From Epinephelus fuscoguttatus (lineage: Eukaryota > Chordata > Actinopteri > Perciformes > Serranidae), in the NCBI RefSeq assembly GCF_011397635.1, contig NC_064770.1:8673826-8737825 (forward strand): a stretch of 64,000 nucleotides of DNA, written 5' to 3'. Under the pieces are notes generated by a model, which searched no databases, was not told the origin of the DNA, and worked only from the letters and a program-made list of their open reading frames with translations. Of this stretch, positions 4,214 to 64,000 are shown one piece after another. A program made the translations under genes and the position numbers. Numbering within the stretch: the stretch's first letter is position 1; the number at the start of each line of letters is the position of its first letter.

Positions 4214-14942
<10,729 letters not shown>

Positions 14943-30475: not shown

Positions 30476-31911
30476 CTGGAAGGGGAAAAAACAAACAAAC
30501 AACAATCTGGTTTCCATCGTCTTTATTTTACAGTATATTCAAACCACCTGTGCTCCAAACCAAATAACCATCAAATATTCTAATTACTACATTTGACGTA
30601 ATTTAAATCTTTAAATATAGTATTAAACTTAGCTTTACTTCGTCGATATACATTTCTGTTCTAGAATAATACATTCTGGGAAATGAGTTCCATCAAAAAA
30701 CAAATATTGATATTTTAACACTTTTAAACACACACGCGCACACGCACACGCACACCCACACGTTCTGCATTGAAACATGGTTTTACAGAGGTCTATAAGC
30801 AGCACATACATACAGTCAGTGGCTTTAAAATGTACAAACCATAATACTTGGTGCTCCTCACGTCATATATAACCTATGACCTGCATCACTTTCTAACTGT
30901 TTCTAAGTCAAAAGCAAACACGTCTCTTCTACCACAAAAACATGTCTCAAAACATCACATAATTGTCAAATAAGCACAAACTGATCAACTTCCCTCTACT
31001 GCGACAATCACCATTTAATTGACACCAAAATATCAGCAGGAATCTCCAGAAAATCATAAGAAAAGCAATAAGGAGTGGCTCGGAAGTTTTCTCTTTAACA
31101 TGAACAAAAGGGTGTCGTCTGCATCAAGTGAATAAAACTTCAGTGTTTTGGTCTGTCATAGAGTTCAGGGACACAACTTCATCTTCATATATGTAAAAAA
31201 AAATAATAACAATAAATGCTAAATAATTTGGGAATAAAGGTAAAGCAGCTCAAGTACCACTTTCTTTTAAGTCACACTTTGTCAGCAAGAGTCTATCTGT
31301 CAAACTAATGGCCTTACTGCTGGTTAATAAATCTTTTACAAATGTTTTTTTTCTTGCTCCTCAGCTCATCAGGTACACCCTGGACCCTAATCTGTTATTG
31401 ATGACTTTAGAGCTGCAGCTTTCCATTATTTTCTCAATTCATCATTTGGTCCCTAAAACGTCAAAAAACAGTAAAAGAAAATGTCCAACACAGTTTCCAA
31501 CAGCTGAAACTGACATATTTAAATGTCTTATTTTGGCTGAAAAACGTCCGAAACCCACAGATATTAAATGTAATATCACAGGAGACAACCAGAACATCAA
31601 ATATTCACTTATGAGAAGGAACCTTGGAACCTGAGTTTTTGTCATTTCTGCTTACAATAATGCTCAAAAATAGCTGCAGAAACATTTCTACATGCAGATA
31701 TAACCAGCAAATGGTATTTCTCACAAACTGTCAATCCAAATGTTGTGGATTAGTCATTTATAACCAATCCATAAAGCATTATTTAAAGATTTATTCACCG
31801 TTAATAAAGCCATAGAGGCTGGCTTAGTGTGTGGTACTGCAGTTACAATGGATGTCAGATAATGTGATACAATGATTGTTATCATACTGGTTGTTCTGGT
31901 TTCCAATATTT

Positions 31912-31974
<63 letters not shown>

Positions 31975-34858
31975 AGTAATATGTTTTAGCTTCTTTTGAT
32001 TTCACATGTTATATATTTCGTTTGACTATCATTTTTCAAAATGATACATTTCTTAATAAACATATTTTATAGTCGTTTTAGCCTGATTGTCTTTTTCATA
32101 TTCGAACTTCCAGATGTTTCAGATGAGTACAACCAAACTGGACAAAAGAGTGGCTGTAAAACACGAGCAGCTTCACATAAAATGACTCGTGATCTAAATG
32201 TGGTATAGGAGCACCAGAACTTCACTGTGGTTGCTGTCTCTGGCCTCTACAGATTCATTTCTCAAACATCCAGTGTGAATATTAAACTCCCCGTCTTTGA
32301 CTGCTCAACAACTTTCATGATTATCAGAATTCAAGGTAATGAAAATGCTACAAAGAGCCATCTGCTGAGGCATGTTAAGACATCATTGAAAGAAAAAAGG
32401 AGTTAGGATCATGAAGGTGTGTAACAGTTATAACATTTCTAGTTTGTGCTTCTTATGTATCATCATTACATCCTTGTCACAGAGTTAAAGATGAGTCCCT
32501 CTAAAACATAAAACCCACAAGGTTGTTTAAAGGGGACCCATTATACCTTCTCTTATTTTCTGTCATATCTATAATGTCACAGTGTCCGACGTTCACACTG
32601 AATGTGGCCAAAGCTTCAAATGATGTGGTAGATTAATGTAAAAGTAATCTTTGTAAGAATGGTCTCAGACCATTAGGAATACTCTGTTAAGTTTTTCTTC
32701 TACTTTTTTTTTGGGGACAAGCTGACGCCAGCTCATGATGCATTTCTTCATGTGGTCATCTGCTCTATGCACTGGTGATGCACGGGTCGACCCACAACCC
32801 TTGGGTTCTGTGGGCTGACCTGCGCGTTGGATGGTTTGGGTTAGAAAATATCGTTGGTTTCTCTTGAGTGGATCTTAAAGTGACAAAGCAGCATTCTGAG
32901 TAAGTTATAACTTACAGAAACACTGCAGCAGTCCACCTTTCACCTTCTCTTCCCCTCTCTCTGTCTCTCCCAATCACACACAGCAAGCGGCTTCATCATC
33001 AGCCCTGCTGCGCTCGAGTTTCTGTTATACGCTATTTGACCTTATTAAATCTCTCCAGTCCACTATAAATATTTCCCTCTGAGAATATGCAGGACTAACA
33101 CTGTGTCCTAACAGCATGCAAGCCTCTCTTATGTTACATCATGTAAACAATCAAACAACTGTACCGATCAGCTGGGAGCTCATGTAAACAAACCACGTAT
33201 GATATCAGCTGTGCTCCAAAGATCACATTGGAGACCTAACCACTCAAATGATGAGTGAGTACTTGCTGTTTACCTACTTTTGTACTTTTTAAACAAAAAA
33301 TGCACATTTTACATTGTGATATTTACTGATATTGACACACAATACAGCTAAAAGCAAGTTGGATATTATTTCCCAAACTTTCAGCTCTGGTTTTTGGGTT
33401 GGGTTCAGGTGATTTGCGAGGCAGGTGGGGCGAACTGGCTCTCGTAATGGGTTGGGCTGATGCAGGTTTTAAAAACCCTGACCCATGCATGATTACCAGG
33501 CACGCTACAGCAAGTGTTTCCAACACACTGCTACATGAGCTACATGCTAATGTCAGGGAAACATGGAATCCTGCTTGCTGATGTTGTTTATTTCTCACCG
33601 ATTTCAGATCATACTCCTACTGGAAGATGTCTGGATGCAAAGATTTGGTTTAGAAGTTTTTATTGGTAATTGTTCATGTTAGAAAGTGCCGCTGTACTCT
33701 GTTACAGTCACCCCCGGCTCAATGATGGTACAGATAATGAAGACCTGGAAACACTCTTTTGGGAGGAGGGCTCAGGAGACAGGCACTAAAATGGAACACT
33801 TCAGATGGTGTTCCAGCACAGACAGTATGAGGAAAATAACCATTGACCCTTAAAGCATGTAAACATGTTCTAGTAGAAACTCAAAATACAAGGATGAATC
33901 TGAAAATGAGCAGAATAGGTCCTCTTTAACAGCATTTTGTGCAGCTCTGAAGGTTTCTCCAGGATTTGTAAACACTCTTCAAATCATCTTCTGCTGCTTG
34001 ATAAACAACATTTTTTAACATGTTTCTAAAGTTGGGACGAGGATTTTTCATTCAAAGCAAACATGATAGCTCCAGGGTTTCCTCGCACTAGATTGGCTGG
34101 CTGTTGCAAAATCAATATGAACTTTTAACTTCAACTCCACAGAGACTGATTTCAGCCTGGTGTCTGATCTGTAGCGCAGGAGGTGACTGAGTGAACGGTT
34201 TGTCTCAGACATTTTTAATTTCTTCTGACATTGTGACATGCTGCTCTAATTTAACATGGCAAAACAACACTACGATGTGATCATTTAATCAATCGCCTGC
34301 TGAGCTGGATCAGACGGATCCTCCTTATCAATATAGTTATTAGGCGCCAGTTAAACCCGCCACCTCAGTCATTAAATATGCGGCCTTTGCTGTGTGTCTG
34401 CTCCTTTTTTTCTTCTGAAGCTTAATATTATATTTGATAAAAATGGCATAATTTCTTCCATCACTTTGAAAAACTCTGGGAAACCCTGAGCCAGAAAAGA
34501 CAGATTATCTAAATAAAACTAATTTTATGAGCTGAAACTGTGACTCAGATGTGAAAAAATACATAAGAGGGACAAACTGAAAATACTGACTGCCCATTCA
34601 TACATCCATCTAGTACAGGGTGATGCTTATGAAAGTCTTCTTTTACAATATATGACTTTTGATATTGGGAGATCAATTTTGACACATAATTCTCACTGCA
34701 TTTATTGTCATATCACCAAAGTGTCAAACCTGTCAACAGCGTATGTTTGTAAAATAAATCAGAGAAAAATCAACTGTAGAAACTGTTGAACTCTTGTTTT
34801 GAGACACATCTAATTTGCAATATTTGGTCATAAACTTTCTGTCTTTCTGAAGTTGTCA
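30476..34858. repeat. Direct segmental duplication, copy 1 (3' side of cdipt)
   Basis: Aligns collinearly and in the same orientation with 58,172-64,000. The first part has scattered substitutions (for example CCAAACCAAATAA against CCAAATAAAATAA); later parts are nearly identical over hundreds of bases. Differences include a stretch of about 85 bp (31,474-31,555) absent from copy 2, replaced sequence near 31,145-31,190, and a TA microsatellite at 31,915-31,969 where copy 2 carries Tc1 copy C. It includes the probable cdipt 3' UTR; minus-strand AATAAA occurs at 34,701-34,706 and near 30,523. No protein gene was recognised inside. Confidence 0.93.
31915..31969. repeat. (AT)n microsatellite
   Basis: About 27 AT units. 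In duplication copy 2 the corresponding site is occupied by Tc1 copy C followed by a shorter TA run. Confidence 0.97.
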
Positions 34859-34984: not shown

Positions 34985-35127
34985 TCACTGCGTCTTCCTC
35001 TTTGCCTCCCGCTCGGCTACGTCGAGGGCGGCCATGTTCTGGGAGGCGGTGACTAGGTGCACGAGGCTGATGCCGGTCTTCACCACGCAGATGATAAAGC
35101 ACAGTCCCTGCAGCCAGTAGAGCCATG
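34985..35127 (-). CDS. cdipt: cdipt terminal coding exon
   Basis: 143 bp, residues 166-212 and TGA: last membrane segment, then HLVTASQNMAALDVAERE and KRKTQ. Acceptor GCTGCAG|CATGG. Confidence 0.95.
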
Positions 35128-35637
35128 CTGCAGCAGAGGGAACTGAATTAGGTTGTTTTCAGGGTGGAAAAGCCTCTGATGTGCTTGGTGAAAAATGACT
35201 TCAACCGACAAAATAGTTGCCAAATAATTTTCTGTCAACTGCCTAATTGATTAATGGACTGATCATTTAAGCTGTGCGTGTATTAACTGTTTAGGAGTAT
35301 AATTTATAACTAAACATCACATTTTAGGAGCTCTTCATATGCTATGTCTGCAAAAATCTTAAGCTGTTAAAGTAACTAAAGCTGTCAGATAAATGTAGTG
35401 AAACATAAGTAGAAAACTAAAGTACAAGTATCAAAACTGTACTGTACTTACTCATTAGATGTTAAGGAGAAGGAACATCTTACCTGCAGGTTCCTGGATG
35501 TGATGGAGAAGGTAGAGCAGACAGAAGAAGAGCTCGTTCCCAGCACACATCACAAACAGCACTGGCTGCAGGACACAAACACTCAGTCATTCTCTTTCAT
35601 TTTAGAGTTACAGAGATTTAATGCATGATGCACAGCA

Positions 35638-35677
<40 letters not shown>

Positions 35678-37843
35678 CCTCACCTTGGATGTGTAGTAGA
35701 TTCGGAGAATAGGGTTGCCGGAGAGGTCGATGGACTTGTGACTAGCCGATCCGTGTATTGTCGAGCTGAGAAATTTTAAATTAAAAGAAATTTTAGGCTG
35801 ATTACAGTTATGTATTATGCGATTACAGCCTTCACATGCAGCCGTTGTAGCGAACATGCGCCTCCTTATAAATATAACTCCACATTGGCAGCAAGAGTTA
35901 CCTCATATTCAGTAACTTACCTGGATGTAACTTCACTTCTGTAAGTACATGTGTAGCCCTGGGTCACTTTGTATAACAGAGTACATGAAAGAATATAAAC
36001 TGAGTTACTTTTGAGACTATAATTAAAACATGAAACCTTTGCTGAGAGGAAACCATGTCCACACACAAAAATTGGTGAATAAAATATTTATATATACAGT
36101 ACAGGCCAAAAGTTTGGACACACCTTCTCATTCAATGCGTTTTCTTTATTTTCATGACTATTTACATTGTAGATTCTCACTGAAGGCATCAAAACTATGA
36201 ATGAACACATGTGGAGTTATGTACTTAACAAAAAAAGGTGAAATAACTGAAAACATGTTTTATATTCTAGTTCTTCAAAATAGCCACCCTTTGCTCTGAT
36301 TACTGCTTTGCACACTCTTGGCATTCTCTCCATGAGCTTCAAGAGGTAGTCACCTGAAATGGTTTCCACTTCACAGGTGTGCCTTATCAGGGTTAATTAG
36401 TGGAATTTCTTGCTTTATCAATGGGGTTGGGACCATCAGTTGTGTTGTGCAGAAGTCAGGTTAATACACAGCCGACAGCCCTATTGGACAACAGTCTTGA
36501 AGGAGTTCCCAGAGGTGTTTAGCACTTGTTGGCCCCTTTGCCTTCACTCTGCGGTCCAGCTCACCCCAAACCATCTCGATTGGGTTCAGGTCCGGTGACT
36601 GTGGAGGCCAGGTCATCTGCCGCAGCACTCCATCACTCTCCTTCTTGGTCAAATAGCCCTTACACAGCCTGGAGGTGTGTTTGGGGTCTTTGTCCTGTTG
36701 AAAAATAAATGATCGTCCAACTAAACGCAAACCGGATGGGATGGCATGTTGCTGCAGGATGCTGTGGTAGCCATGCTGGTTCAGTGTGCCTTCAATTTTG
36801 AATAAATCCCCAACAGTGTCACCAGCAAAACACCCCCACACCATCACACCTCCTCCTCCATGCTTCACAGTGGGAACCAGGCATGTGGAATCCATCCGTT
36901 CACCTTTTCTGCGTCTCACAAAGACACGGCGGTTGGAACCAAAGATCTCAAATTTGGACTCATCAGACCAAAGCACAGATTTCCACTGGTCTAATGTCCA
37001 TTCCTTGTATTTCTTGGCCCAAACAAATCTCTTCTGCTTGTTGCCTCTCCTTAGCAGTGGTTTCCTAGCAGCTATTTGACCATGAAGGCCTGATTCGCGC
37101 AGTCTCCTCTTAACAGTTGTTCTAGAGATGGGTCTGCTGCTAGAACTCTGTGTGGCATTCATCTGGTCTCTGATCTGAGCTGCTGTTAACTTGCGATTTC
37201 TGAGGCTGGTGACTCGGATGAACTTATCCTCAGAAGCAGAGGTGACTCTTGGTCTTCCTTTCCTGGTCGGTCCTCATGTGTGCCAGTTTCCTTGTAGCGC
37301 TTGATGGTTTTTGCGACTCCACTTGGGGACACATTTAAAGTTTTTGCAATTTTCCGGACTGACTGACCTTCATTTCTTAAAGTAATGATGGCCACTCGTT
37401 TTTCTTTAGTTAGCTGATTGTTTCTTGCCATAATATGAATTTTAACAGTTGTCCAATAGGGCTGTCGGCTGTGTATTAACCTGACTTCTGCACAACACAA
37501 CTGATGGTCCCAACCCCATTGATAAAGCAAGAAATTCCACTAATTAACCCTGATAAGGCACACCTGTGAAGTGGAAACCATTTCAGGTGACTACCTCTTG
37601 AAGCTCATGGAGAGAATGCCAAGAGTGTGCAAAGCAGTAATCAGAGCAAAGGGTGGCTATTTTGAAGAAACTAGAATATAAAACATGTTTTCAGTTATTT
37701 CACCTTTTTTTTGTTAAGTACATAACTCCACATGTGTTCATTCATAGTTTTGATGCCTTCAGTGAGAATCTACAATGTAAATAGTCATGAAAATAAAGAA
37801 AACACATTGAATGAGAAGGTGTGGCCAAACTTTTGGCCTGTAC

Positions 37844-37882
<39 letters not shown>

Positions 37883-40800
37883 TATATATATATATAATAT
37901 ATATATGACTTCAAAGGCTGTATCCTGTTTACCTTTATATACTGTTACTTACTGCTCTACTACCTCTTTACATCTCTGTATGTACTATATGTATATATAT
38001 TGTATTGTTGTTATATCCATATAACAAATAGACTGTGATATATCTGCACAGCAGCAGATAATGTTCAACATTTTCAGGCAGACATCACTAGATCAAATGT
38101 CAGAGGCAGAATGGCAGACAGGCGTAACAGTGACCCTGACATGCATTTTCACTCCAGTGTTCACTTCGGACCCTATTTTTATGATGGACTTTTTTTGTGA
38201 GTATATGATAATAATTTAATGCAAGTACTCGAGTAAAGAAATCACTTAAAATTCCCATCCATAGTTCTGTGTGTGTAGCATGGAGGGGGCTACAACTACA
38301 TTTCATTGTGTAATCCTGTACCGTATATTGACAATAGTCAAACTGTTGCAAGGGTCCTAAAGACAGAGGCATGTGATATGCTGTAAAGCCCTCTGAGGCA
38401 AATTGTAATTTGTGATATTGGGCTTTATAAATAAAATTGATGATGATGATGATAAATTATTTAAACCTCGTGCACAAAATAAATTGAATTTGCTCTGTTT
38501 TTTAGTCCCAGATAAAGATTCAAAAAAGCCTGACACAAAGACTGCTCAGGTCGACACTTGTGACTCGACTTCCAGTGGCACCACCTGCGCAGGTTAAACA
38601 GGTTCTGGTGTTACCTCAGAACACTGTCTACAGCTGAACACTGAACAGTTAATGTTCCTGCCCACAGACTAATGTAATGTTTAATCAGCATTAATATCAT
38701 CTTGTTCCTCATCCACATGGCAGAGAATCTATTCTGCAAGCAACAGTCACCCTGAGGGTTAAATCCATGTGAGGACAGAGACTTGTCTTGATAATAGCGT
38801 ACCTGTGCAGGTGCAGCCAGTGGCTGGCTATGTCCACACACATGCTGATCTGGAACAGGAAAGTGTAGGAGGGGTAGAGCAGGGACAGATTCACCAGCAG
38901 ACACATGGTGGCACAGCGGTCAGTCAGCATGTCCATCATGGCTCCAAACTTAGTGGCTGAAAAAAAGCATCAGTAAATATAGAAAGTCAGGAGAATATAA
39001 AAAACCTCATCTGTTTATTCCTAGCTGGGGTTAAGACTTTAGTGGTGAATGTTAAACTGAAGATGCTGAAACTTTTTTATATTTTTCTCTGGTAAATAAA
39101 GACTTGTCTCTCAGCCTAACACAGATATTCAAAGACGTAGGTTTGGTTTAAGAAGTGGAACGGACACAATTATTAAAACATTAAGGGAGTATTGACTGTG
39201 CATAAAAATGTACATTAAATGATTTTTTTAATTAAAAAAAATGGCAAACCTGTTCTGTGTGCAAGTGCACTGGGAGCAACTTAAAACTGGAGTCATATTC
39301 CTTGTATCTGTACACATACCTGGCCCCTTCAGTTCCTGAGATATGATCTTGAAGAATGCTGGAATGTGAAGCTGACCTTTGACCTTTTGGATCTATAATG
39401 TCATCACTTCATCATTTTATCCCACTAGGTAATGTTGTGAAATTTCGTCATATTTAGCATATGAATTCACGGCCAAAAATGTGTTCTGTGAGGTCACAGT
39501 GACCTTGACTTTTGACCACCAAATTCTAATCAGTTCATTGTTGAGTCCAGGTACTGTAGGTTTTTGTGCCAAATTTGAGGAAATTCCCTCAAGGACTTCT
39601 TGTGATATTGCATTTACGAGAATGAGACGCACACAAGGTCATGGTGACTTTGAATTCCCACCACCAAAATCAACTCATCCTTGAGTCCAAATAAACGTTT
39701 GTACCAATTTTGAGTTAATTCCCTCAAGGCCTTCCAAGGCTGAGAGGTACATGTTCATCACTCCATACCCAGTGGAAAATAATGATCCTCACAAATACGT
39801 ACACTGATTGAGTGCCCGTGCAGCGTAGCCATCAAAATTATCAAGCAGAGCACTGAGCAGGTAGCAGAAGACGGCGGGCCACGGACAGCAGGGCATCAGG
39901 TAGAAGGAAACCAGAGCCAACACAATGCGGCCGTAACCTGCAGGTAAAAAGAACAAGTTACATGTGGAGAAATGTGGACAAGTTTCTCTTGTCCAGAAAC
40001 ATTAAGCTTAACCTTGTTTGCTGGCCTGACTGGTACTGTGCAATTAACAATTTTGAGGTACTCCTACTATACTTGGCTATTTTCATTTTTTAGTTCTACT
40101 TCACAGTATCTTAGAGGGAAATATTATACTTTCTACTGCATTTTAAAACTTAAGTTCCTCTTCAGATTTAGATTGTCAATACAAAATAGAATAACCTAAT
40201 AAATGATGATGCATTATTACAGTTAACCTACCACACAGTATAAAGTAGGCTAAAACAAAAATGTTCTCTCTACCTTTAGCAGCTGCAACAGTAAAGTGAT
40301 GAACACTGATGATCAATGCATCAATACTAAAATGAAATTATAAAATACTTTAAGTTTAATTTCATGCTAATACTTCTGTACTTTTACTCAAGTCATTTTT
40401 TGAATAAAGGGCTTTTACTTGCAGCTGAGTATTTACACACTGGTATCTCTTTTGTCTTGAGATGTGCATACATAAAGTCAATCAGACATTAATTACATTG
40501 AGTATGTTTATTAATCGGTATATCTATAGCAGTTACAGTAAATGCTTCTATACTTCCATGAAGATTTAGAATTATTAGTTCGTTTGTGAGCCTCTGAAAA
40601 TAAGTCGAAGTCTACATGTGACACCTAATCACAGTTTCTGAACTTGAGTTTAATCTAAGTGGGATTTCTCATTGTCAGACAATTAACGTTAGAGGCCTGA
40701 GGAGCTCTAAGTGCTTTGAATTTCACAATATACATGGCAAAAACTGGGGGGAAAAAGATAACGTTAGAAAATTAAATAATCCAGATATAACAGTAGATGG

Positions 40801-40970
40801 ATAACATTATGTTGTATCGGCACTTTTTTGAATAGATTTCGGTGCGACTCGTCTCACAGCAGCATCCATCCTGTATGTTGGCTAACTCTCAGCTAGCTAC
40901 ATGATGGAAAACACGATAGAAACTCACCAATTAAATTGGGAACGAAGACAAAAATATTTTCCTGCGTCAT
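34985..40970 (-). CDS. cdipt: CDP-diacylglycerol-inositol 3-phosphatidyltransferase (PI synthase), 6 coding exons
   Basis: Integral ER membrane enzyme that makes phosphatidylinositol from CDP-diacylglycerol and myo-inositol. Exons: 40928-40970, 39803-39937, 38803-38956, 35684-35765, 35484-35565, 34985-35127. GT/AG at all junctions; phases sum to 212 codons plus stop (human 213). The CDP-alcohol phosphatidyltransferase signature is complete: D47, D50-G51, A54-R55, G64, D68 and D72 (LLDNFDGYAAR ... FGAMMDMLTD). Hydrophobic segments surround it, and the C-terminus is basic (KRKTQ), like the KKK end of mammalian CDIPT. ATG at 40968-40970 has A at -3. No damage was seen, so this copy should be functional. 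Intron 3 carries Tc1 copy B; intron 2 carries an ERE-bearing repeat. Confidence 0.96.
35484..35565 (-). CDS. cdipt: cdipt coding exon 5
   Basis: 82 bp, residues 139-165: PVLFVMCAGNELFFCLLYLL, a membrane segment. Acceptor CCTGCAG|CCAGT, donor GCAG|GTAAGA. Confidence 0.94.
35641..35674. repeat. (GT)n microsatellite
   Basis: 17 GT units within the short intron between cdipt exons 4 and 5, ending ten bases from the exon 4 splice donor. Confidence 0.97.
35684..35765 (-). CDS. cdipt: cdipt coding exon 4
   Basis: 82 bp, residues 111-138: SSTIHGSASHKSIDLSGNP to LRIYYTSK. Acceptor TTCTCAG|CTCG, donor AAG|GTGAGG. Confidence 0.95.
36097..37845 (-). mobile_element. Tc1/mariner-like transposon, copy B
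   Basis: In cdipt intron 3. Ends are CAGTACAGGCCAAAAGTTTG (36097) and its complement (37845), preceded by TA and followed by CATATA with an expanded TA run. Inverted repeats are about 395 bp rather than 270 bp. The left arm contains, from about 36,365 to 36,492, an inverted copy of the sequence preceding the transposase gene on the other side, fused to the coding region at CAAC|AGTCTTGAAGG. The transposase 3' end has been replaced accordingly. Confidence 0.93.
36461..37431 (-). pseudogene. Defective Tc1 transposase (copy B)
   Basis: Helix-turn-helix and DDE regions as in copy A. This copy keeps the third catalytic acid (PDLNPIEMVW, GAG at 36575-36577). A one-base deletion near 37,265 shifts the frame after THEDRPGKE. 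The C-terminal 35 or so residues are lost and replaced by PIGLSAVY through the TIR rearrangement. Confidence 0.92.
37847..37907. repeat. Interrupted (TA)n microsatellite
   Basis: TA-rich run abutting the right end of Tc1 copy B, interrupted by ACAGTA. Confidence 0.9.
38330..38458 (+). repeat. Retroposon 3' tail with (GAT)n
   Basis: CTGTAAAGCCCTCTGAGGCA and GATATTGGGCTTTATAAATA, followed by AAAATTGATGATGATGATGA. This is a well-known fish retroposon 3' end with its terminal microsatellite. It lies in cdipt intron 3. Confidence 0.65.
38803..38956 (-). CDS. cdipt: cdipt coding exon 3 (second half of active site)
   Basis: 154 bp, residues 60-110: STKFGAMMDMLTDRCATMCL, then QISMCVDIASHWLHLH. Contains the last two metal-binding aspartates of the signature. 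Acceptor TTTTTCAG|CCACT, donor CACAG|GTACGC. Confidence 0.96.
39330..39770 (+). repeat. Teleost tandem-type repeat (GTGACCTTGAC family)
   Basis: Repeating phrases include TTTGACCACCAAATTCTAAT, CCAAATTTGAGGAAATTCCC, CTCAAGGACTTCTTG, AGGTCATGGTGACTTTGA and TTGAGTTAATTCCCTCAAGG. The internal period is roughly 110-130 bp with divergence. It lies in cdipt intron 2. Confidence 0.7.
39491..39505. promoter_or_regulatory. Perfect palindromic estrogen response element motif
   Basis: AGGTCACAGTGACCT matches the consensus ERE AGGTCAnnnTGACCT exactly. It is part of a dispersed repeat family in cdipt intron 2; function is unproven. Confidence 0.5.
39803..39937 (-). CDS. cdipt: cdipt coding exon 2 (first half of active site)
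   Basis: 135 bp, residues 15-59. A hydrophobic segment, then LLDNFDGYAARALNQ. Human CDIPT has Ala where this copy has N48. Acceptor CTGCAG|GTTAC, donor CAGT|GTACGT. Confidence 0.95.
40040..40460. repeat. hAT-type MITE fragment in cdipt intron 1
   Basis: TTTTGAGGTACTCCTACTAT to TTTTACTTGCAGCTGAGTAT. This is the same broad family as 16,845-17,693, with degraded ends. Confidence 0.5.
40928..40970 (-). CDS. cdipt: cdipt coding exon 1
   Basis: 43 bp: MTQENIFVFVPNLI plus one base of Gly, matching the MPDENIFLFVPNLIG start of the human enzyme. Donor ATTG|GTGAGT. Confidence 0.95.
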
Positions 40971-51206: not shown

Positions 51207-51210
51207 CCAT

Positions 51211-51234
<24 letters not shown>
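51207..51234. repeat. Poly-T run
   Basis: About 23 T in a row in a taok2 intron, possibly the A-tail of a minus-strand retroposon. Confidence 0.8.
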
Positions 51235-51241
<7 letters not shown>

Positions 51242-51827
51242 AATATTCTGGCTGTACTATTGTTGTCCGTGAGATCAGTATGTTGTATGAACATTATTCC
51301 TTAGTCTCTGTGACATATTAGAAGGATTTTATGACTATTTGCTTTAGATTTCTTACATATAGCTCCTTTAAAACAGAAAATCAACTATAAAAATTCTTGT
51401 TTATTTTCTGTAGATAAATTCAAAAAAGTGTTTCAGCTAAAGTATTTTCATTGTATAACTTCAGTTTTGCTGCGAGATAATTAGAAGATAAGATGTCACT
51501 TTATTAAGCAAATTGCTGTGCAGCAGTCACATTACAAAGTAGGACAGAGATAATTAAATGATAATTAAATCATTTTGTCAGGCTGTGCCATTAAAAAATA
51601 ATAGTTGGTATTTATTGTTTGTAGAAATCTTCTTTGTCGACCTGCTGATTTGTGCTGCTCACACAAACGAAAATTTCCACAACACTGCTTGTACTTTTGC
51701 TTTTATTTTCAAACTGTGATGAACACATTGAGGTGATGCTGATGCACTGATGGATGACGTGTGGTGTGTTGAGGTGCAGATGCAGTTTCAGGTGTACAAG
51801 GTGCGCGGGTTTCCTTGCCTTACTCAC

Positions 51828-52038
51828 AGCCTGTGTGGACAGCATGTCGTTGATGGAGTGGTCGTACTGCTCGGCCAGGATGGCCAGCTTACGTGTTTGC
51901 TCCTCTTTGATGCGTTTGAGGACGGCCTTGTGGTCGGATTTGGGAGTGCTCTCTAGCAGGTGGTTCCTCAGGGCTTTGTACTGACGAGTCTGGATCTTAC
52001 ACGTCTCCTGGAACTGGCGCGATCTGCAGCTCTTTGGA
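51828..52038 (-). pseudogene. taok2: taok2 coiled-coil exon with 2-bp deletion
   Basis: Acceptor TTTCAG|TCC, then SKELQI as in TAO kinases. The exon is 211 bp where the family length is 213. Two bases are missing between the Ile codon and CGCCAGTTC; read straight on it stops at TAA after 13 codons. The conserved frame resumes as [20 protein letters not shown] and ends LSTQA before GTGAGT. Confidence 0.88.
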
Positions 52039-52256
52039 CTGAAACATGGTTTTGATAACAATCAGATGATATTTGATATATTTTACTTTATTTGGACGTG
52101 CTTTACTTGAGCATTTCCATTCTTTGAAATATACCTCTACCTCTCAGTACTAATCAACCCTAGTGAACAAAGTATCTAAAATTGACTCCACGTTGAAACT
52201 GCAACATTAAAATATTTTAACATGCAAGACCTAGTGATAAAGATAAGTAATAAATA

Positions 52257-53098
52257 GACCCGTTTCCACCGCAGGAACTTCGGGGTAAATTTACGGGGCC
52301 GGGGCCGTTGGTGCATGTCTCCACCGCAGCAACCACCCCCGAAGGACAGAGTTCCGGAACTTTTACAGGGGCTAAACAAGTCCCTGCCTACCCTACCTCC
52401 TGGCTGGGGCTTGGGGGTTACTTGGTGCTGATTGGATATACTCAAGGCGGAATGTGACGTCAGCAGAAAGCAACAAAATAGCCGGCATTTTTTAAAACTC
52501 AGCAGACGAGGGTTAGCTTGTTCATAGCTTCCACCACCATGTAAACAAACTCAATAACCGGTCCGTGAAAAACACATTTTTTTCTGGCGGATATCTTAGT
52601 TACAACATGATTGAGCTAGCAAAGCAGTTTTGTGTTGCTATGTGTGGTATTTATTCACTTTTGGGAAATCACGATGTCTAGCAGCTGACAGGGACAGCTA
52701 ACAGCAGCAGTAAAGCTAACATCAGGACATCATCTGTTAAAAGCCTCCCGTTGTCGGAAACGACACGAAACTACTCCAGTTAGCTCAATCATGTTGTAAC
52801 TAAGACATCCGCTGGAAAAATATTTTTTTCACGGGCCACTTTGTGAGTTTACTGAGTTATTACAGACACCGCTATCGGCTAACAGCTAACGGTGTCCCTA
52901 CGCCACTACGTCACCTCGGTCAAAAATGGTCGCGCAACGAAACATCACATCCAGAGCCCGGTAACTTTACAGGAACCTTCCTCCTACTCTGCTCTCTCAG
53001 TGGAGACACGGCGGTTGAGAGGGCTGAGTGAGAGGACGTTCATGTAGTAGTTCCTGTTCCCCAAATAGTACCAGGAACTTCTTCAGTGGAAACGGGCC
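52257..53098. mobile_element. MITE with ~25-bp inverted ends in a taok2 intron
   Basis: Starts GACCCGTTTCCACCGCAGGA and ends TCAGTGGAAACGGGCC, imperfect inverted repeats. It is flanked on both sides by TAAATA (52251-52256, 53099-53104), a likely target duplication. The interior is GC-richer with internal inverted similarity (TAGTTACAACATGATTGAGC / GCTCAATCATGTTGTAACTA). Superfamily not assigned. Confidence 0.78.
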
Positions 53099-53425
53099 TA
53101 AATATTCTAGTACAACATAACACTATGAAAGGAGTCATTCTGCATATAACTTTTACTAAACTATACTGTGCTTTCATTTTTATTCTTTATAGTATATTTT
53201 GATTTTTTTTTCATTAAAAGATGAGAGTTTAAATGCTTCATTTTGAGTGAAAAATTTGCATGACGCGGTGCCGCAAAAGTCTATGAAAATTTGTCACTGC
53301 AATGCCTATTTCACAGGAGATGTCTTTAGTCCTCTTTTCCTCTTGTTGAGTTTTTTTAAGCTCCCTGACAAGCTCCCAGATCAGAGGCAAATTGGTGCTC
53401 AAGCACTGTGTGTAAACTGTTTTAA

Positions 53426-54117
53426 AGGGCCAGTGTGTAAAATGGGTTGAAAACAGTGACATCAGTGGTCAAATTCTAGATTGCAGGGCTCACTCGCTCA
53501 CCCCTCCCGTCGGGTAAATGACGGCGGCCTCGTAGGGACAAAAAGCCTTGCGCACGACTTTTTCAGGAGTTGGTTTATCTAGCGATGAGGTGAATGTTTA
53601 TTTAGAAATCTAAACCATGTTACGATATTGTAATGAATCCCTCACAAGCAGAAGACCAGAGGTTCGGGAAAAAGGCCAGTTTATTTGAGCACTCCAGAAA
53701 CTCTGGTAACACTCCAGGGGGTAAAAGACTCCATCCCAAACTCTGACTCTTTCTCATAACTTTACACACATACTCATTTACCATATCGAGTGGGGACCCC
53801 CCTCCCCTCTCTGCTCCGCCAATCTCCAGCCCGCACACTGACTGACAGCGTAGCCTGTAAACAGAGCTCAGCTGTTTATTTAGCCTAGCAATATCTCCGG
53901 ACTATAGTCGCTGCAATGGACGACTTTGAACGCGATTTTGAAGAGTTTCTTGTAGCGGACACAGACCCAGAGCCATACCTGTTTGAGCCGGAGCATACAG
54001 ATGAGGAACTCCATGTGTTTGATGCTGAGCGGGCGAGAAGAGAGGCTGAATGCACAGAATGGCATTCGGTGCTACTGCTACCATCGTTGGGGAGATATAT
54101 CATCAGGAGGAAAAGCG
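53426..54117 (+). repeat. Inserted repeat joined to the broken taok2 exon
   Basis: Starts GGGCCAGTGTGTAAAATGGG, a phrase common in fish repeats. Contains an acidic open frame from ATG at 53,916 (MDDFERDFEEFLVADTDPEP, then YLFEPEHTDEELHVFDAERA) that resembles repeat-borne proteins seen many times in fish genomes. The frame runs into taok2-derived sequence at about 54,118, so the 3' part of the repeat is missing. Confidence 0.6.
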
Positions 54118-54171
54118 CCGCAGCAGCATGGCGCACTCCAGATCCTTCTGGGTCTGCTTCTTGTTCAGGTC
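54118..54171 (-). pseudogene. taok2: taok2 exon remnant cut by an inserted repeat
   Basis: Acceptor CCATCAG|GACC, then DLNKKQTQKDLECAMLLR, where homology stops abruptly. The expected continuation (QHES... to QQPKSLK in TAO kinases) is absent. The sequence runs into an unrelated repeat at 53,426-54,117. Confidence 0.88.
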
Positions 54172-54372
54172 CTGATGGAAGATGAGACAGAGGGAGAGCA
54201 GAAATGCAAGAGACATAAGGTTAACAACCACAGAGACAGTCAAAGGCAACGGGTTTATTGAAGTGGAAGTACTTAGTGTTTGACAAAGGACAAGCGCACC
54301 ACTCAATCTGTGCATCTCCAATTTATTTCACATTTTTTATGCATAGCTTTGGGGGGATTTTAACCATCGTAC

Positions 54373-54477
54373 CTCTCTAAGCAGGTCCTGCTCCAGGTTG
54401 TGGTGAGCCAGCAGCATCTTCCTCTTATACTGGCGACACTGCAGCTTGTAGTACTGCCTCTGCCTCCGGAGCAGAAG
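54373..54477 (-). pseudogene. taok2: taok2 exon remnant ([11 protein letters not shown])
   Basis: Encodes [20 protein letters not shown], then [14 protein letters not shown] before donor GTACGA. Upstream of the Leu codons homology ends without a convincing acceptor. The ELNENQSTPK-type segment that joins this to the previous exon in the family is missing. Confidence 0.85.
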
Positions 54478-55040
54478 ATGTGAAGATAAATTACAAGTTA
54501 ACTCTCGCGTGTTCTGCGCTGAAACTGTCCGGGTGCCGCACTGCCCCCTCTCTTGTTCCACCAACATCACGTTATTAAGTTAACACTGAGATAACTGATA
54601 ACTGACATTTGTGAATCAATGCTCGATGGTCCACGTCCGCGTTGTGATTCATCTAAGAATTGATTATTTCCCCTAAAACTAAGAGATGTGTGAGCCAAGT
54701 GTCTCCTTCATGGCTGAATTTGAAGTTAATGTATGTAAATGCAGCTTTATATGTTATGATAGATTTCATTTCAAGGCTTAATTTCATTCTACAACACTGT
54801 CACAATGAAATGTAGTTGTAGCCCCTCCACACTACACACACAGAAAATGTATTAACAGATATTTAAATAAGACTAAAACAGTACAAACTATACAAAAGCA
54901 TGAAACTAAACCTTTATTTTAAGCAGGGAAGGGAATGTTATATTTTTTCCTTTTGCTAATCCAAACTACTCAGGAAATATAAATGCAAAATAAAGATCAG
55001 TGTGCAACCATCGTCAAGTATCTGTTTACTGCATCTAAAT

Positions 55041-55514
55041 TAGTGCTGCACGATTAATCTAATCGCAATTGCAATCACGATGTCAGGCTGTGCGATTACA
55101 TAACCGCATAAAAGGCTGCGATTTGCAATTTAATGTAAATAAATGTTAACATGTGTGCCTGTGAACGTGACTGCCTCTCCTGTAGCGTGTGGAGTTTGTT
55201 GACATCACGCCCACAAGCTATCCTGGTGCGTGCAGCCGGTGTGCAGCAGTGACCAACACAGACGCTGAAGAAGAGCATGAGCATGAACAGGCTGAGTTGG
55301 TGGCGAAAAAAAACGTCTGTTACATGGCGATACTTTGGATTTAGGTACGGTGACGTTGAACAGAAAGACGTGCTGTGTAAGTGTAAAAGTTAAAGTCGCC
55401 ATGTCCCGCGGCAATAGGATTGTGCCGATGGGCAATCCGATTGCCCATCGGAAGGGTTGTTTCACGATGTCTTTTTTAAATGACAATGCAATCGCGAGGT
55501 GTGTGTGAGTGTGT

Positions 55515-55545
<31 letters not shown>

Positions 55546-56310
55546 GGGCAGCGTGTGTGTGAGTGAGCGTGCTGAATGCGAGTAGACAGAGGGAGGCTGC
55601 TTAGTGAGAGAGCGGGGGGGGTAATCAACGCCTCCGCCCGCTGGACACAAGCATACTCGGGCGTACGATAAGCGGAGCGGACTCTGCGAGGAATGTCCGC
55701 AGTCATTCGGGCTTTCATAGTCGAGCACACTTCCGCGTTGTAGTTTCCTGTAAAAATGTCCGTGAAAAATCCCCGCGATGTGAAAAATACATGCCGAGCA
55801 GTCACTGGTGCGCGGAGCGGAGTCCGCACAGGGCTTGCAGACGTCCGCTTTGAGTCCGCGCAGACCTCCGCGGAATCCGTTCCGCGTATGTTCCGCCCGA
55901 GTATGTTCGGGCCTTCACGCGCATGACCAAACAACACAATGTCAGGAGAAATTGAAAATATATGCCGTCTATGTAAAGTCAACTTGCTAATTCAGGAGCC
56001 ATTACATGTTCAAGAGTTTTATAAAGCTGCTCAAACGCCACAAGTGAACGTTTCATCGGCAACGCGTAATGACCCCAGCGTACTTGACTGTGCTCAGTCT
56101 GTTGATGGTCATTTACACTGTCCATAACAATAACTATTCAGGTCAGGTCAGGTCAGGTCAGTGCCCCCCTGATATAATGTAGGGGAAACACTGAATCAAG
56201 CAAGAAGACTCATGATACCATTTATGTATTATATTGTAATCGCAATCACAAATCGCGATATCGTCCACTCAAATCGCAATCGCACATTTTTATAAAATCG
56301 TGTAGCACTA
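55041..56310. mobile_element. hAT-type element with exact 8-bp target duplication
   Basis: 1,270 bp. Begins TAGTGCTGCACGATT and ends AAATCGTGTAGCACTA. It is flanked by ATCTAAAT on both sides (55033-55040, 56311-56318). Subterminal AATCGCAATCGCA motifs lie at both ends. No intact transposase; a 62-codon frame at 55,939-56,127 begins MSGEIENICRLCKVNL. It contains GT and G runs (55,508-55,548) and a GC-rich inverted block (about 55,645-55,915) that may be a nested insertion. Confidence 0.9.
55508..55548. repeat. (GT)n followed by poly-G run
   Basis: GT dinucleotides followed by about 19 G residues inside the hAT element. Confidence 0.95.
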
Positions 56311-56536
56311 ATCTAAATGAGCTGCAATCATGTTTTTAACACTAAAACACAAAAGGATGGCTAAACAACTCCAAACAACATCGAGTCTTAAATATTTCCA
56401 GTGAACACTTGGACCGCTGGAGGAGAGCAACAACTACATTTAGAGGACATGGGGTGTAAGTGCTAATACGCATGTTCTCTGGTTTGAGGAATATCACCCA
56501 TTGTCAACATTAGTTTTAATATGCGTTAGCTCTTAC

Positions 56537-56665
56537 CTCTTTCAACTGATCCTTTCGCTGACGGTACTGCCGTTTCTGTGACTCCAGTAAACTGGTCAAT
56601 TCTTTCTTCTGCTGGCCCAGTATGTGCTGCTGGAACTTCTTCTCTTCTGTCAGAGCTGCTTTTGT
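56537..56665 (-). pseudogene. taok2: taok2 coiled-coil exon (FQQHILGQQKKEL)
   Basis: 129 bp, 43 codons, intact: TKAALTEEKKFQQHILGQQ to RQYRQRKDQLKE. Acceptor TCTGCAG-type (CTTGCAG|ACAAA), donor GAG|GTAAGA. Confidence 0.9.
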
Positions 56666-56827
56666 CTGCAAGACAACACAAACAGAGGCTGAGGGTAAGA
56701 GGTTGGCTTAAAGAAACAGCAGTGCTAATTCAGACATAGCAGCAATTATGAAATGATCAAATTTCAGGTCAACAGGATAAAGGTGTGATCACACTGAGTC
56801 TACTGATACATGAAGTCCTGATGTCAC

Positions 56828-57064
56828 CTCTTTCTCTAGGATGGCCTGGTGCTTCTTTGCCAGCTTGTCGGCTTCAGTGGAGAAGCTGTTCCTCTGGTTC
56901 TCCAGCTCTTTGTCCAGCTTCAGCTGATGTTCATCCATCTCCGCCTTCAGCTTGTTCTCTAGCCCCATCAGCTGCTTCTGGTGCTGCCGCCTCATACGTT
57001 TGTAGCCAGACATCTGCTCTCGCAGTGCCGAGCCCTGCTCATGTTCCTGAATCTGACGGGTTAC
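56828..57064 (-). pseudogene. taok2: taok2 coiled-coil exon ([10 protein letters not shown]), most 5' exon present
   Basis: 237 bp, 79 codons, intact: [40 protein letters not shown], ending [10 protein letters not shown]. Acceptor CATCCAG|GTAACC, donor GAG|GTGACA. It corresponds to roughly the middle of an intact TAO kinase, and nothing further 5' is found before the duplication copy begins at about 58,172. Confidence 0.92.
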
Positions 57065-58171
57065 CTGGATGAGGGGAAGAGGTGAACAGGTCAATACTGA
57101 TGTTTGAAGGTGGGCGTTCATTTCAGCTGGCCAGCAGAGGCCTGGCAAACTGATGTAAAACTTGTTACAACTGCTGTCATATACACTAGAGTGCACAAAA
57201 TGTGGCATAAAGGCATCTGGCTACATCTGCAGTGTGAAGTGGACCTGTTTGACATGGGTCGGGTCACCCAAATCACAAAACATACTCAGCGAGCCACGAG
57301 CACAGTTTAATTTGCGTACTCTTTGAGACCTCTGCAGCCACCACAACAAAGCCCAAACTCAAGTATAACAGAATCATGTCAGACCATAAAGGCTGACTTC
57401 AGGAAGGTTTCTTCATCAAATGGAATTTTGTTTGTGAAGCTCAGGATGAAGATAATGAAACCCTCTTCAGCAAAATTCCAGATAAAATCCCTAACTGCCA
57501 ATTTTTTCCACAAAGAACCATGTTCTGCCTTACCAAATAAATTAATTTCAGGTCTTAAGAACCTGGGAAAAAACTGAAATGACCTGTATGGCCTGATAGC
57601 AGTAGAGAAAACTGTATGCAAGAAAATGTTTGTTTTGTTAGCAATTTTTGTAAACTAATAAAATACATATAAAAGCAAATCACAATTTCCTAAAGCCCAA
57701 TTTTACATCTCCATATGTGCCGAATATAAATATTAGAGAAAAACAGCACATTCTCACAAAAGAATTTGGCACAAGAAAATGAAAACAATTAATCCATTAT
57801 CAAAATGGCTGTTAAGAGTTTTGTCCACCAATACATCTGTTATTCAAATAAGCATTTCATCTCTAGTATTAAATAAAGTTTCCACTGAAAAACCTTTGTT
57901 ATACTATCAGATAATGAGAATATAAGACAAAAATGTATCTATTCTAAGAGAAACTGTCATGCAGCAGTTGCAGAACAAAGGAGGGAAGAGCCCTTTAAAC
58001 TGGAAAAAGAAATGCAGCTCAAAGTCCCATATGACATTTGCAGCTCTCAGTCTAACCTAGAGAAGATATCTGTACAAACCTGACTTTACTGAAAATGAAG
58101 CTGACATTTTTGGAGGGCAAAGACAAAGCATTAAGAGATTTTGAGATATTACATTAATAATCAGAATCACA
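57065..58171. other. taok2 intron remnant up to duplication junction
   Basis: Follows the last recognisable taok2 exon. AT-rich; no further TAO kinase exon (such as the segment preceding VTRQ in intact genes) was found. Ends where similarity to 30,476 onward begins (CTGGAAG...AAAAAACAAAC). Confidence 0.6.
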
Positions 58172-59597
58172 CGAAACTGGAAGTGAAAAAACAAACAATC
58201 TGGTTTCCATCGTCTTTATTTTACAATAAATTCAAACCACCTGTGCTCCAAATAAAATAACCATCAAATATTCTAATTACTACATTTGAGGTAATTTAAA
58301 TCTTTAAATATAGTATTAAATTTAGCTTTACTTCGTCGATATACATTTCTGTTCTAGAATAATACATTCTGGGAAATGAGTTCCATCAAAAAACAAATAT
58401 TGATATTTTAACACTTTTAAACACACACACGCACACGCACACCCACACCCACACCCACACCCACATGTTCTGCATTGAAACATGGTTTTACAGAGGTCTA
58501 TAAGCAGCACATACATACAGTCAGTGGCTTTAAAATGTACAAACCATCATACTTGGTGCTCCTCACGTCATATATAACCTATGACCTGCATCACTTTCTA
58601 ACTGTTTCTAAGTCAAAAGCAAACACGTCTCTTCTACCACAAAAACATGTCTCAAAACATCACATAATTGTCAAATAAGCACAAACTGATCAACTTCCCT
58701 CTACTGCGACAATCACCATTTAATCGACACCAAAATATCAGCAGGAATCTCCAGAAAATCATAAGAAAAGCAATAACGAGTGGCTCGGAAGTTTTCTCTT
58801 TAACATGAACAAAAGGGTGTCGTCTGCATCAAGTGAATAAAACATCTTTATATATGTAAAAAAAAAACCAAACAAACAAAAAACAATAAATGCTAAATAA
58901 TTTGGGAATAAAGGTCATTTTTCTCGAGAGTCAAAGTTTTTATGCTTACAGCTGCCATTTCCTCCACAAACTTAAGAACACATTGTTTGAATGTAGAAGC
59001 AGCTCAAGTACCACTTTCTTTTAAGTCACACTTTGTCAGCAAGAGTCTATCTGTCAAACTAATGGCCTTACTGCTGGTTAATAAATCTTTTACAAATGTT
59101 TTTTTCTTGCTCCTCAGCTCATCAGGTACACCCTGGACCCTAATCTGTTATTGATGACTTTAGAGCTGCAGCTTTCCATTATTTTCTCAATTCATCATTT
59201 GGTCCCTAAAACGTCAAAAAACCCACAGATATTAAATGTAATATCATAGGAGACAACCAGAACCATCAAATATTCACTTATGAGAAGGAACCTGTGAGTT
59301 TTTGTCATTTCTGCTTACAATAATGCTCAAAAATAGCTGCAGAAACATTTCTACATGCAGATATAACCCGCAAATGGTATTTCTCACAAACTGTCAATCC
59401 AGATGTTGTGGATTAGTCATTTATAACCAATCCATAAAGCATTATTTAAAGATTTATTCACCGTTAATAAAGCCATAGAGGCTGGCTTAGTGTGTGGTAC
59501 TGCAGTTACAATGGATGTCAGATAATGTGATACAATGATTGTTATCATACTGGTTGTTCTGGTTTCCAATATTTCAAATTAATATTCTAATATTCAA

Positions 59598-61059
59598 ATA
59601 TTCTAGTTTCTTCAAAATAGCCACCCTTTGCTCTGATTACTGCTTTGCACACTCTTGGCATTCTCTCCATGAGCTTCAAGAGGTAGTCACCTGAAATGGT
59701 TTCCACTTCACAGGTGTGCCTTATCAGGGTTAATTAGTGGAATTTCTTGCTTTATCAATGGGGTTGGGACCATCAGTTGTGTTGTGCAGAAGTCAGGTCA
59801 ATACACAGCCGACAGCCCTATTGGACAACTGTTAAAATTCATATTATGGCAAGAACCAATCAGCTAACTAAAGAAAAACGAGTGGCCATCATTACTTTAA
59901 GAAATGAAGGTCAGTCAGTCCGGAAAATTGCAAAAACTTTAAATGTGTCCCCAAGTGGAGTCGCAAAAACCATCAAGCGCTACAAGGAAACTGGCACACA
60001 TGAGGACCGACCCAGGAAAGGAAGACCAAGAGTCACCTCTGCTTCTGAGGATAAGTTCATCCGAGTCACCAGCCTCAGAAATCACAAGTTAACAGCAGCT
60101 CAGATCAGAGACCAGATGAATGCCACACAGAGTTCTAGCAGCAGACCCATCTCTAGAACAACTGTTAAGAGGAGACTGCGAATCAGGCCTTCATGGTCAA
60201 ATAGCTGCTAGGAAACCACTGCTAAGGAGAGGCAACAAGCAGAAGAGATTTGTTTGGGCCAAGAAACACAAGGAATGGACATTAGACCAGTGGAAATCTG
60301 TGCTTTGGTCTGATGAGTCCAAATTTGAGATCTTTGGTTCCAACCACCGTGTCTTTGTGAGACGCAGAAAAGGTGAACGGATGGATTCCACATGCCTGGT
60401 TCCCACTGTGAAGCATGGAGGAGGAGGTGTGATGGTGTGGGGGTGTTTTGCTGGTGACACTGTTGGGGATTTATTCAAAATTGAAGGCACACTGAACCAG
60501 CATGGCTACCACAGCATCCTGCAGCGACATGCCATCACATCCGGTTTGCGTTTAGTTGGACGATCATTTATTTTTCAACAGGACAAAGACCCCAAACACA
60601 CCTCCAGGCTGTGTAAGGGCTATTTGACCAAGAAGGAGAGTGATGGAGTGCTGCGGCAGATGACCTGGCCTCCACAGTCACCGGACCTGAACCCAATCCA
60701 GATGGTTTGGGGTGAGCTGGACCGCAGAGTGAAGGCAAAGGGGCCAACAAGTGCTAAACACCTCTGGGACCTCCTTCAAGACTGTTGGAAAACCATTTCA
60801 GGTGACTACCTCTTGAAGCTCATGGAGAGAATGCCAAGAGTGTGCAAAGCAGTAATCAGAGCAAAGGGTGGCTATTTTGAAGAAACTAGAATATAAAACA
60901 TGTTTTCAGTTATTTCAGCTTTTTTTGTTAAGTACATAACTCCACATGTGTTCATTCATAGTTTTGATGCCTTCAGTGAGAATCTACAATGTAAATAGTC
61001 ATGAAAATAAAGAAAACGCATTGAATGAGAAGGTGTGGCCAAACTTTTGGCCTGTACTG
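59598..61059 (+). mobile_element. Tc1/mariner-like transposon, copy C, left end truncated
   Basis: Same family as copies A and B but in plus orientation. The right inverted repeat is complete (ends GGCCTGTACTG at 61059). The outer 165 bp or so of the left repeat is missing, and homology starts at ATATTCTAGTTTC next to ATATTC-rich sequence. It sits inside duplication copy 2 and is followed by TGTG and TA runs. Confidence 0.93.
59846..60896 (+). pseudogene. Defective Tc1 transposase (copy C)
   Basis: MARTNQLTKEKRVAIITLRN, helix-turn-helix and GRPRV are intact. Compared with copies A and B, two bases (CG) are missing at about 60,180, which shifts the frame. The downstream frame has LWSDESKFEIF, FIFQQDKDPKHT and PDLNPIQMVWGELD to FEETRI and stop. 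The third catalytic residue is Gln (CAG 60699-60701), as in copy A. The frameshift is the only frame break, making this the least damaged copy. Confidence 0.93.
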
Positions 61060-61063
61060 TGTG

Positions 61064-61070
<7 letters not shown>

Positions 61071-61111
<41 letters not shown>
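61071..61111. repeat. (TA)n microsatellite beside Tc1 copy C
   Basis: About 20 TA units between the right end of Tc1 copy C and the resumption of duplication homology at AGTCTCAGTAATATG. Confidence 0.96.
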
Positions 61112-61116
<5 letters not shown>

Positions 61117-64000
61117 AGTAATATGTTTTAGCTTCTTTTGATTTCACGTTATATATTTCGTTTGACTATCATTTTTCAAAATGATACATTTCTTAATAAA
61201 CATATTTTATAGTCGCTTTAGCCTGATTGTCTTTTTCATATTCGAACTTCCAGATGTTTCAGATGAGTACAACCAAACTGGACAAAAGAGTGGCTGTAAA
61301 ACACGAGCAGCTTCACATAAAATGACTCGTGATCTAAATGTGGTATAGGAGCACCAGAACTTCACTGTGGTTGCTGTCTCTGGCCTCTACAGATTCATTT
61401 CTCAAACATCCAGTGTGAATATTAAACTCCCCGTCTTTGACTGCTCAACAACTTTCATGATTATCAGAATTCAAGGAAATGAAAATGCTACAAAGAGCCA
61501 TCTGCTGAGGCATGTTAAGACATCATTGAAAGAAAAAAGGAGTTAGGATCATGAAGGTGTGTAACAGTTATAACATTTCTAGTTTGTGCTTCTTATGTAT
61601 CATCATTACATCCTTGTCACAGAGTTAAAGATGAGTCCCTCTAAAACATAAAACCCACAAGGTTGTTTAAAGGGGACCCATTATACCTTCTCTTATTTTC
61701 TGTCATATCTATAATGTCACAGTGTCCGACGTTCACACTGAATTTGGCCAAAGCTTCAAATGATGTGGTAGATTAATGTAAAAGTAATCTTTGTAAGAAT
61801 GGTCTCAGACCATTAGGAATACTCTGTTTCTTAAGTTTTTCTTCTACTTTTTTTGGGGACAAGCTGACGCCAGCTCATGATGCATTTCTTCATGTGGTCA
61901 TCTGCTCTATGCACTGGTGATGCACGGGTCGACCCACAACCCTTGGGTTCTGTGGGCTGACCTGCGCGTTGGATGGTTTGGGTTAAAAAATATTGTTGGT
62001 TTCTCTTGAGTGGATCTTAAAGTGACAAAGCAGCATTCTGAGTAAGTTATAACTTACAGAAACACTGCAGCAGTCCACCTTTCACCTTCTCTTCCCCTCT
62101 CTCTGTCTCTCCCAATCACACACAGCAAGCGGCTTCATCATCAGCCCTGCTGCGCTCGAGTTTCTGTTATACGCTATTTGACCTTATTAAATTTCTCCAG
62201 TCCACTATAAATATTTCCCTCTGAGAATATGCAGGACTAACACTGTGTCCTAACAGCAAGCAAGCCTCTCTTATGTTACATCATGTAAACAATCAAACAA
62301 CTGTACCGATCAGCTGGGAGCTCATGTAAACAAACCACGTATGATATCAGCTGTGCTCTAAAGATCACATTGGAGACCTAACCACTCAAATGATGAGTGA
62401 GTACTTGCTGTCTACCTACTTTTGTACTTTTTAAACAAAAAACGCACATTTTACATTGTGATATTTACTGATATTGACACACAATACAGCTAAAAGCAAG
62501 TTGGATATTATTTCCCAAACTTTCAGCTCTGGTTTTTGGGTTGGGTTCAGGTGATTTGCGAGGCAGGTGGGGCGAACTGGCTCTCGTAATGGGTTGGGCT
62601 GATGCAGGTTTAAAAACCCTGACCCATGCATGATTACCAGGCACGCTACAGCAAGTGTTTCCAACACACTGCTACATGAGCTACATGCTAATGTCAGGAA
62701 ACATGGAATCCTGCTTGCTGATGTTGTTTATTTCTCACCGATTTCAGATCATACTCCTACTGGAAGATGTCTGGATGCAAAGATTTGGTTTAGAAGCTTT
62801 TATTGGTAATTGTTCATGTTAGAAAGTGCCGCTGTACTCTGTTACAGTCACCCCCGGCTCAATGATGGTACAGATAATGAAGACCTGGAAACACTCTTTT
62901 GGGAGGAGGGCTCAGGAGACAGGCACTAAAATGGAACACTTCAGATGGTGTTCCAGCACAGACAGTATGAGGAAAATAACCATTGACCCTTAAAGCATGT
63001 AAACAAGTTCTAGTAGAAACTCAAAATACAAGGATGAATCTGAAAATGAGCAGAATAGGTCCTCTTTAACAGCATTTTGTGCAGCTCTGAAGGTTTCTCC
63101 AGGATTTGTAAACACTCTTCAAATCATCTTCTGCTGCTCAATAAACAACATTTTTTAACATGTTTCTAAAGTTGGGACGAGGATTTTTCATTCAAAGCAA
63201 ACATGATAGCTCCAGGGTTTCCTCGCACTAGATTGGCTGGCTGTTGCAAAATCAATATGAACTTTTAACTTCAACTCCACAGAGACTGATTTCAGCCTGG
63301 TGTCTGATCTGTAGCGCAGGAGGTGACTGAGTGAACGGTTTGTCTCAGACATTTTTAATTTCTTCTGACATTGTGACATGCTGCTCTAATTTAACACGGC
63401 AAAACAACACTACAATGTGATCATTTAATCAATCAAAGCTGGATCAGACGGATCCTCCTTATCAATATAGTTATTAGGCGCCAGTTAAACCCGCCACATC
63501 AGTCATTAAATATGCGGCCTTTGCTGTGTGTCTGCTCCTTTTTTTCTTCTGAAGCTTAATATTATATTTGATAAAAATGGCATAATTTCTTCCATCACTT
63601 TGAAAAACTCTGGGAAACCCTGAGCCAGAAAAGACAGACTGTCTAAATAAAACTAATTTTATGAGCTGAAACTGTGACTCAGATGTGAAAAAATACATAA
63701 GAGGGACAAACTGAAAATACTGACTGCCCATTCATACATCCATCTAGTACGGGGTGATGCTTATGAAAGTCTTCTTTTACAATATATGACCTTTGATATT
63801 GGGAGATCAATTTTGACACATAATTCTCACTGCATTTATTGTCATATCACCAAAGTGTCAAACCTGTCAACAGCGTATGTTTGTAAAATAAATCAGAGAA
63901 AAATCAACTGTAGAAACTGTTGAACTCTTGTTTTCTTGTTTTGAGACACATCTAATTTGCAATATTTGGTCATAAACTTTCTGTCTTTCTGAAGTTGTCA

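Follow-up and report, generated by a model that had tools for sequence, protein, structure and literature searches.

Introduction

Copy-number variation at human 16p11.2 concerns a unit that is flanked by repeats and is far larger than the one described here. The gene cdipt codes for phosphatidylinositol synthase, a lipid enzyme. For taok2, passages of PMC6988705 name two genes in zebrafish, taok2a and taok2b. Of 47 papers found for taok2, cdipt and duplication, the ten listed deal with human or mouse copy-number variants and related disorders, and the duplication reported below was not found among them. Near-identical neighbouring sequences may also be products of assembly. According to passages of Ko et al. 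(PMC9516828), false duplications are recognized by half read depth, by discordant linked reads and one-copy k-mers, and by gaps that separate the copies, and passages of Rhie et al. (PMC8081667) report individual heterozygosities of 0.1-1.6%.

Here, we describe two adjacent copies of a 27.7-kb unit on contig C19 (NC_064770.1) of Epinephelus fuscoguttatus, which probably represent a genuine tandem duplication, whether fixed or heterozygous. Coordinates refer to the window, a 64,000-nucleotide stretch of the forward strand (C19:8673826-8737825, window position p being C19 position 8673825+p), and are continued beyond its end. We examined the window together with 80 kb of downstream and 20 kb of upstream sequence, and all 164 kb were self-compared. 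Genome-wide searches covered 1,046,998,120 bases in 26 contigs.

Two direct copies of a 27.7-kb unit

Self-BLAST revealed four direct and collinear pairs of matches, 30493-31138/58186-58843, 31237-31469/58990-59222, 31541-31924/59208-59585 and 31926-34858/61068-64000, with identities of 96.1-98.7% and E-values from 0 to 6e-116, far past chance. To set the limits of the units we aligned three boundaries (left, A|B junction and right), all of which lie in N-free sequence. The initial annotation had placed collinear direct copies at 30,476-34,858 and 58,172-64,000; their collinearity and orientation hold, while the boundary alignment moves their starts by 9 and 4 bases, to 30467 and 58168. Unit A occupies 30467-58167 (C19:8704292-8731992) and contains the 3' flank of cdipt, cdipt itself and the 3' half of taok2. 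Its length of 27,701 bp agrees with the predicted unit of about 28 kb. Unit B extends from 58168 to 93893 (C19:8767718), and its part within the window, 58168-64000, is the readable 3' flank of the second cdipt. It then crosses a run of N, resumes at 69,001 (pairing with 40,315) and stops at 93,893 (pairing with 58,167). The second copy had been thought to stop near 64,000, which is not the case: the sequence downstream is more of unit B and not unrelated, as expected if the duplicate continues there.

With two adjacent, directly oriented copies longer than 1 kb and more than 90% identical, the locus as assembled classes as a tandem segmental duplication. A 1-kb probe of the duplicated stretch gave two near-identical places in the genome among the best 40 of 3,727 candidates. 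No third near-identical copy was seen among these 40, or in searches in which 10 of 10 and 49 of 49 candidates were scored.

The N run at 64,001-69,000 consists of exactly 5,000 N and begins at the window end, 5.8 kb past the junction. Its counterpart in copy A measures 5,456 bp, of which a Tc1-like element accounts for about 1.8 kb. The round length of the run is consistent with a placeholder gap. No other N runs were present in 53 loci (275,480 bases, partly overlapping), and none in the 20-kb upstream flank of the window. No paper was found on fish assemblies whose gaps are 5,000 N long. Given its exact start and length, the run might, though rather improbably, be masked sequence and not an assembly gap, in which case unit B could be fully assembled and contain a normal second cdipt.

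Neighbouring sequence holds further features. Next to the duplication, C2H2 zinc-finger exons resembling maz lie at window 24421-26117 on the minus strand. Farther downstream, a tandem array of HSP70 genes occupies C19:8793718-8815795 (window-relative 119893-141970) on the minus strand, with units of about 5-7 kb that are mostly 98-99% identical; the one ORF scanned matched Pfam HSP70 with E = 1.8e-161. The window itself contains no Rfam features at gathering scores.

The junction between the units

The A|B junction (58167..58168) joins a unit end within a taok2 intron to a unit start 3' of cdipt. The boundary alignment shows this junction in contiguous, N-free sequence without microhomology, and it contained no repeats at the unit ends (about 160-200 bases around each end); the 164-kb self-comparison gave no matches pairing the two ends either. 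On the right, the breakpoint lies in the taok2 intron that precedes the exon beginning near residue 474; on the left, it lies some 4.5 kb 3' of the cdipt stop codon. Together, boundary alignment and taok2 exon positions place a breakpoint within a taok2 intron, as the initial annotation had predicted.

We suggest that a 27.7-kb segment was duplicated in tandem, head-to-tail, and that its ends were joined without homology, either by end joining or by replication template switching, as a junction with neither shared bases nor repeats would suggest. Recombination between repeats (NAHR) was rejected as the origin, the unit ends being without homologous repeats in the 160-200 or so bases aligned around each. 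The Tc1 elements were rejected as the cause, since those at 36 and 60 kb sit inside the units and not at their ends.

The start of unit B is unusually divergent from unit A: the 33 bases that follow the junction carry 5 substitutions. Raised mismatch of this kind may mark either a weakly supported contig end or a site of mutagenic repair.

Insertions private to one copy

The low divergence and private indels ascribed to the copies were confirmed, for example by a Tc1/mariner-like transposon at 59598-61060 (plus strand) that only copy B carries; the corresponding site in A is an (AT)n tract at 31915-31969. A member of the same family, with inverted repeats, lies at 36084-37858 (minus strand) within the third intron of cdipt A. 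Intron 1 of cdipt B contains a private insertion of 6.3 kb (69746-76071), with LINE-like frames recognized by eye only and no Pfam match for the two ORFs scanned. Other private segments of roughly 0.3-0.5 kb occur in either copy. The Tc1/mariner-like family is also found at window 5369-7007, and at least 40 copies in the genome have 98-99% identity (the best 40 of 1,150 candidates); it has probably been active recently.

Gene content of the two units

For gene finding we used human CDIPT and TAOK proteins as queries, and the genes matching them are those that we take to be cdipt and taok2. Read along the minus strand, a complete taok2 is followed by cdipt B, the headless taok2 and cdipt A.

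cdipt copy A (34985-40970, minus strand) has six exons, each open, with splice sites judged by eye. The protein match runs from 40,970 to 34,997, the stop codon lies at 34,985, and the product has a CDP-OH_P_transf (CDP-alcohol phosphatidyltransferase) domain. Of the second cdipt that had been predicted, exon 1 (76352-76308, minus strand) and the 3' flank are present and readable; exons 2-6 are not readable, and their expected place is the 5,000-N run. The genome-wide protein search returned one set of exons 2-6, that of copy A (five matches), and no second set. The second cdipt is probably whole. The gene would have been copied together with its own upstream region and is probably present twice.

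The protein match also defined a complete taok2 exon set at 105,898-84,861 on the minus strand. Its exons up to about residue 473, which include the protein kinase domain, lie at 105,898 to 94,198, outside the units, and the remainder of the gene lies within unit B. Unit A, by comparison, contains a headless taok2 (49442-57064, minus strand) that retains only the exons encoding the protein from about residue 474 onwards. Both a headless taok2 and, farther along, a complete one with its kinase exons had been foreseen. The outer copy (B) thus appears to have stayed linked to the first exons and the kinase exons of taok2, while the inner copy (A) would have become a kinase-less fragment severed from the start of the gene.

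The headless copy is damaged at several exons. Exon e3 has lost its 5' part and acceptor to a 322-bp deletion, and the 3' part of e4, the larger share of that exon, is replaced by unrelated sequence (53425-54117, without a BLAST match to the corresponding B stretch, 89304-89917). Frameshifts of 2 bp in e5 and 5 bp in e7 were also found, the latter judged by reading frame only. Copy B, which is joined to the kinase exons, has frameshifts too: single bases are missing once in e1 and twice in e2, and a further 4 bp are missing in e7 (e7 again by reading frame only).

To polarize the changes we used as outgroup the taok2-like exons on contig C20, restricted to e1-e5. These belong to a second taok2-like gene at 18.59-18.61 Mb, which is the relative with the highest identity; further TAOK relatives lie on contigs C5, C6, C12 and C18. 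Against this outgroup, the losses in e3, e4 and e5, together with the bases at two breaks, are changes of A. Three substitutions were specific to A (two in e3, one in e5) and none to B in the compared parts of e1-e5, a small count, with a one-sided chance of 1 in 8 under equal change in the two copies. Greater weight as evidence goes to the structural losses of A. The first 60-odd bases of e1 have no partner in the C20 stretch, and there A and B are identical. These comparisons suggest that the headless taok2 lost exon parts and its reading frame later, after it had been severed.

Divergence between the copies

The seven aligned blocks over which we counted divergence exclude the N run and the large insertions, as well as 53425-54117/89304-89917, where a forced alignment had raised the divergence of that half to 2.5%. 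The copies differ by 195 substitutions in 20,885 sites (0.93%; 118 transitions and 77 transversions). If they evolved apart, a neutral rate roughly assumed as 2-5e-9 per site per year would give an age of about 1-2 million years.

Divergence is uneven along the unit: it amounts to 1.2% on the left and 0.6% at 46-51 kb, and the final 2.6 kb show 0.23%. The most divergent part is a short block right after the N run (12/369), and the least divergent is the right block, 55566-58167 versus 91294-93893, with 6 substitutions in 2,582 sites against about 1% in the rest; the final 2.1 kb of the units contain 2. Gene conversion or a shared allele could possibly explain this near identity. A real and old duplication needs gene conversion here; alleles could simply share the segment.

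The same right block is rich in indels, with an indel to substitution ratio of 9:6 compared with 54:189 elsewhere (Fisher p = 0.003). At B 92042-92731 (C19:8765867-8766556), bases are missing at six places within about 690 bp that contain one substitution. Four of these six deletions are 1-bp, none is in a homopolymer, and three fall in taok2 coding exons. They are probably unpolished sequence or residual sequencing error, making B locally unreliable, although they could be real; near-identical copies confuse read mapping, so poor polishing is expected there. Passages of PMC8081667 describe error effects like these for haplotypes and false duplications. Since the effects are known in both, the B deletions cannot separate a true from a false duplication.

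Discussion

Several observations support a true duplication. The duplicated sequence is found on both sides of the junction, with a full taok2 beyond it, and a junction without shared bases or repeats offers nothing via which an assembler would join contigs or recombination could proceed. The headless taok2 has lost exon parts and reading frame, and the comparison with C20 identifies A as the changed copy in e3-e5, which favours a true duplicate over alleles set end to end: broken in e3, e4, e5 and e7, A is unlike an allele of a working gene, while a headless copy may well look so. We infer that the animal itself carries the junction. Counting against a true duplication are an allele-like divergence of 0.93%, the N run nearby, the near-identical unit ends, the B frameshifts and the divergent start of B.

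A possible, though rather unlikely, form of the true duplication is a real but heterozygous copy-number variant (two units versus one) whose haplotypes the assembly has mixed. If, for example, B past the N run came from the single-copy haplotype, the gradient of divergence across the unit would follow, and the second copy is indeed broken by the N run. Gene conversion, however, also yields uneven divergence.

It is improbable that the assembly placed two alleles of a single-copy region in succession. Substitutions at 0.93% and the presence or absence of transposons are possible for alleles of a diverse animal. Copy B also contains a run of N, and its local deletions and the raised mismatch in its first bases fit poorly covered sequence. 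Passages of PMC9516828 place 7-24% of such false duplications on one scaffold in three older vertebrate assemblies. The same source treats a gap between the copies as a primary mark, whereas the junction here is gap-free and non-homologous. One taok2 'allele' would, moreover, be without exon parts, that is, a null allele. The missing exon parts of A speak against two working taok2 alleles under equal constraint, but B has small deletions in its exons too, tentatively read as sequence error, and the substitution count of 3 to 0 is small.

That both C19 taok2 copies are truly broken in their 3' half, with the gene being lost, the C20 taok2 taking over and cdipt kept in two doses, is very improbable.

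With a genuine tandem duplication as the preferred reading, the locus calls for care in annotation, as automated gene calls may include a taok2 without its kinase part and a second cdipt that is truncated or fused. The locus might also serve as a test case in which true and false duplications are told apart by the asymmetric decay of one copy.

Among known systems, the locus most resembles tandem segmental duplications with a partial gene at the breakpoint: the copies are direct, tens of kilobases long and about 99% identical, and one of them carries a truncated pseudogene. There is no difference in kind; the second cdipt here is not fully readable. With false heterotype duplications, as described in passages of PMC9516828 and PMC8081667, it shares adjacent, near-identical copies on one scaffold and an N run nearby; unlike them, it has a gap-free junction and one taok2 copy that is broken in several places. 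Human 16p11.2 copy-number variation likewise involves both TAOK2 and CDIPT; the present case concerns another organism and has no flanking repeats. The locus described here is most likely a recent tandem duplication of an ordinary kind, in which one gene copy is truncated.
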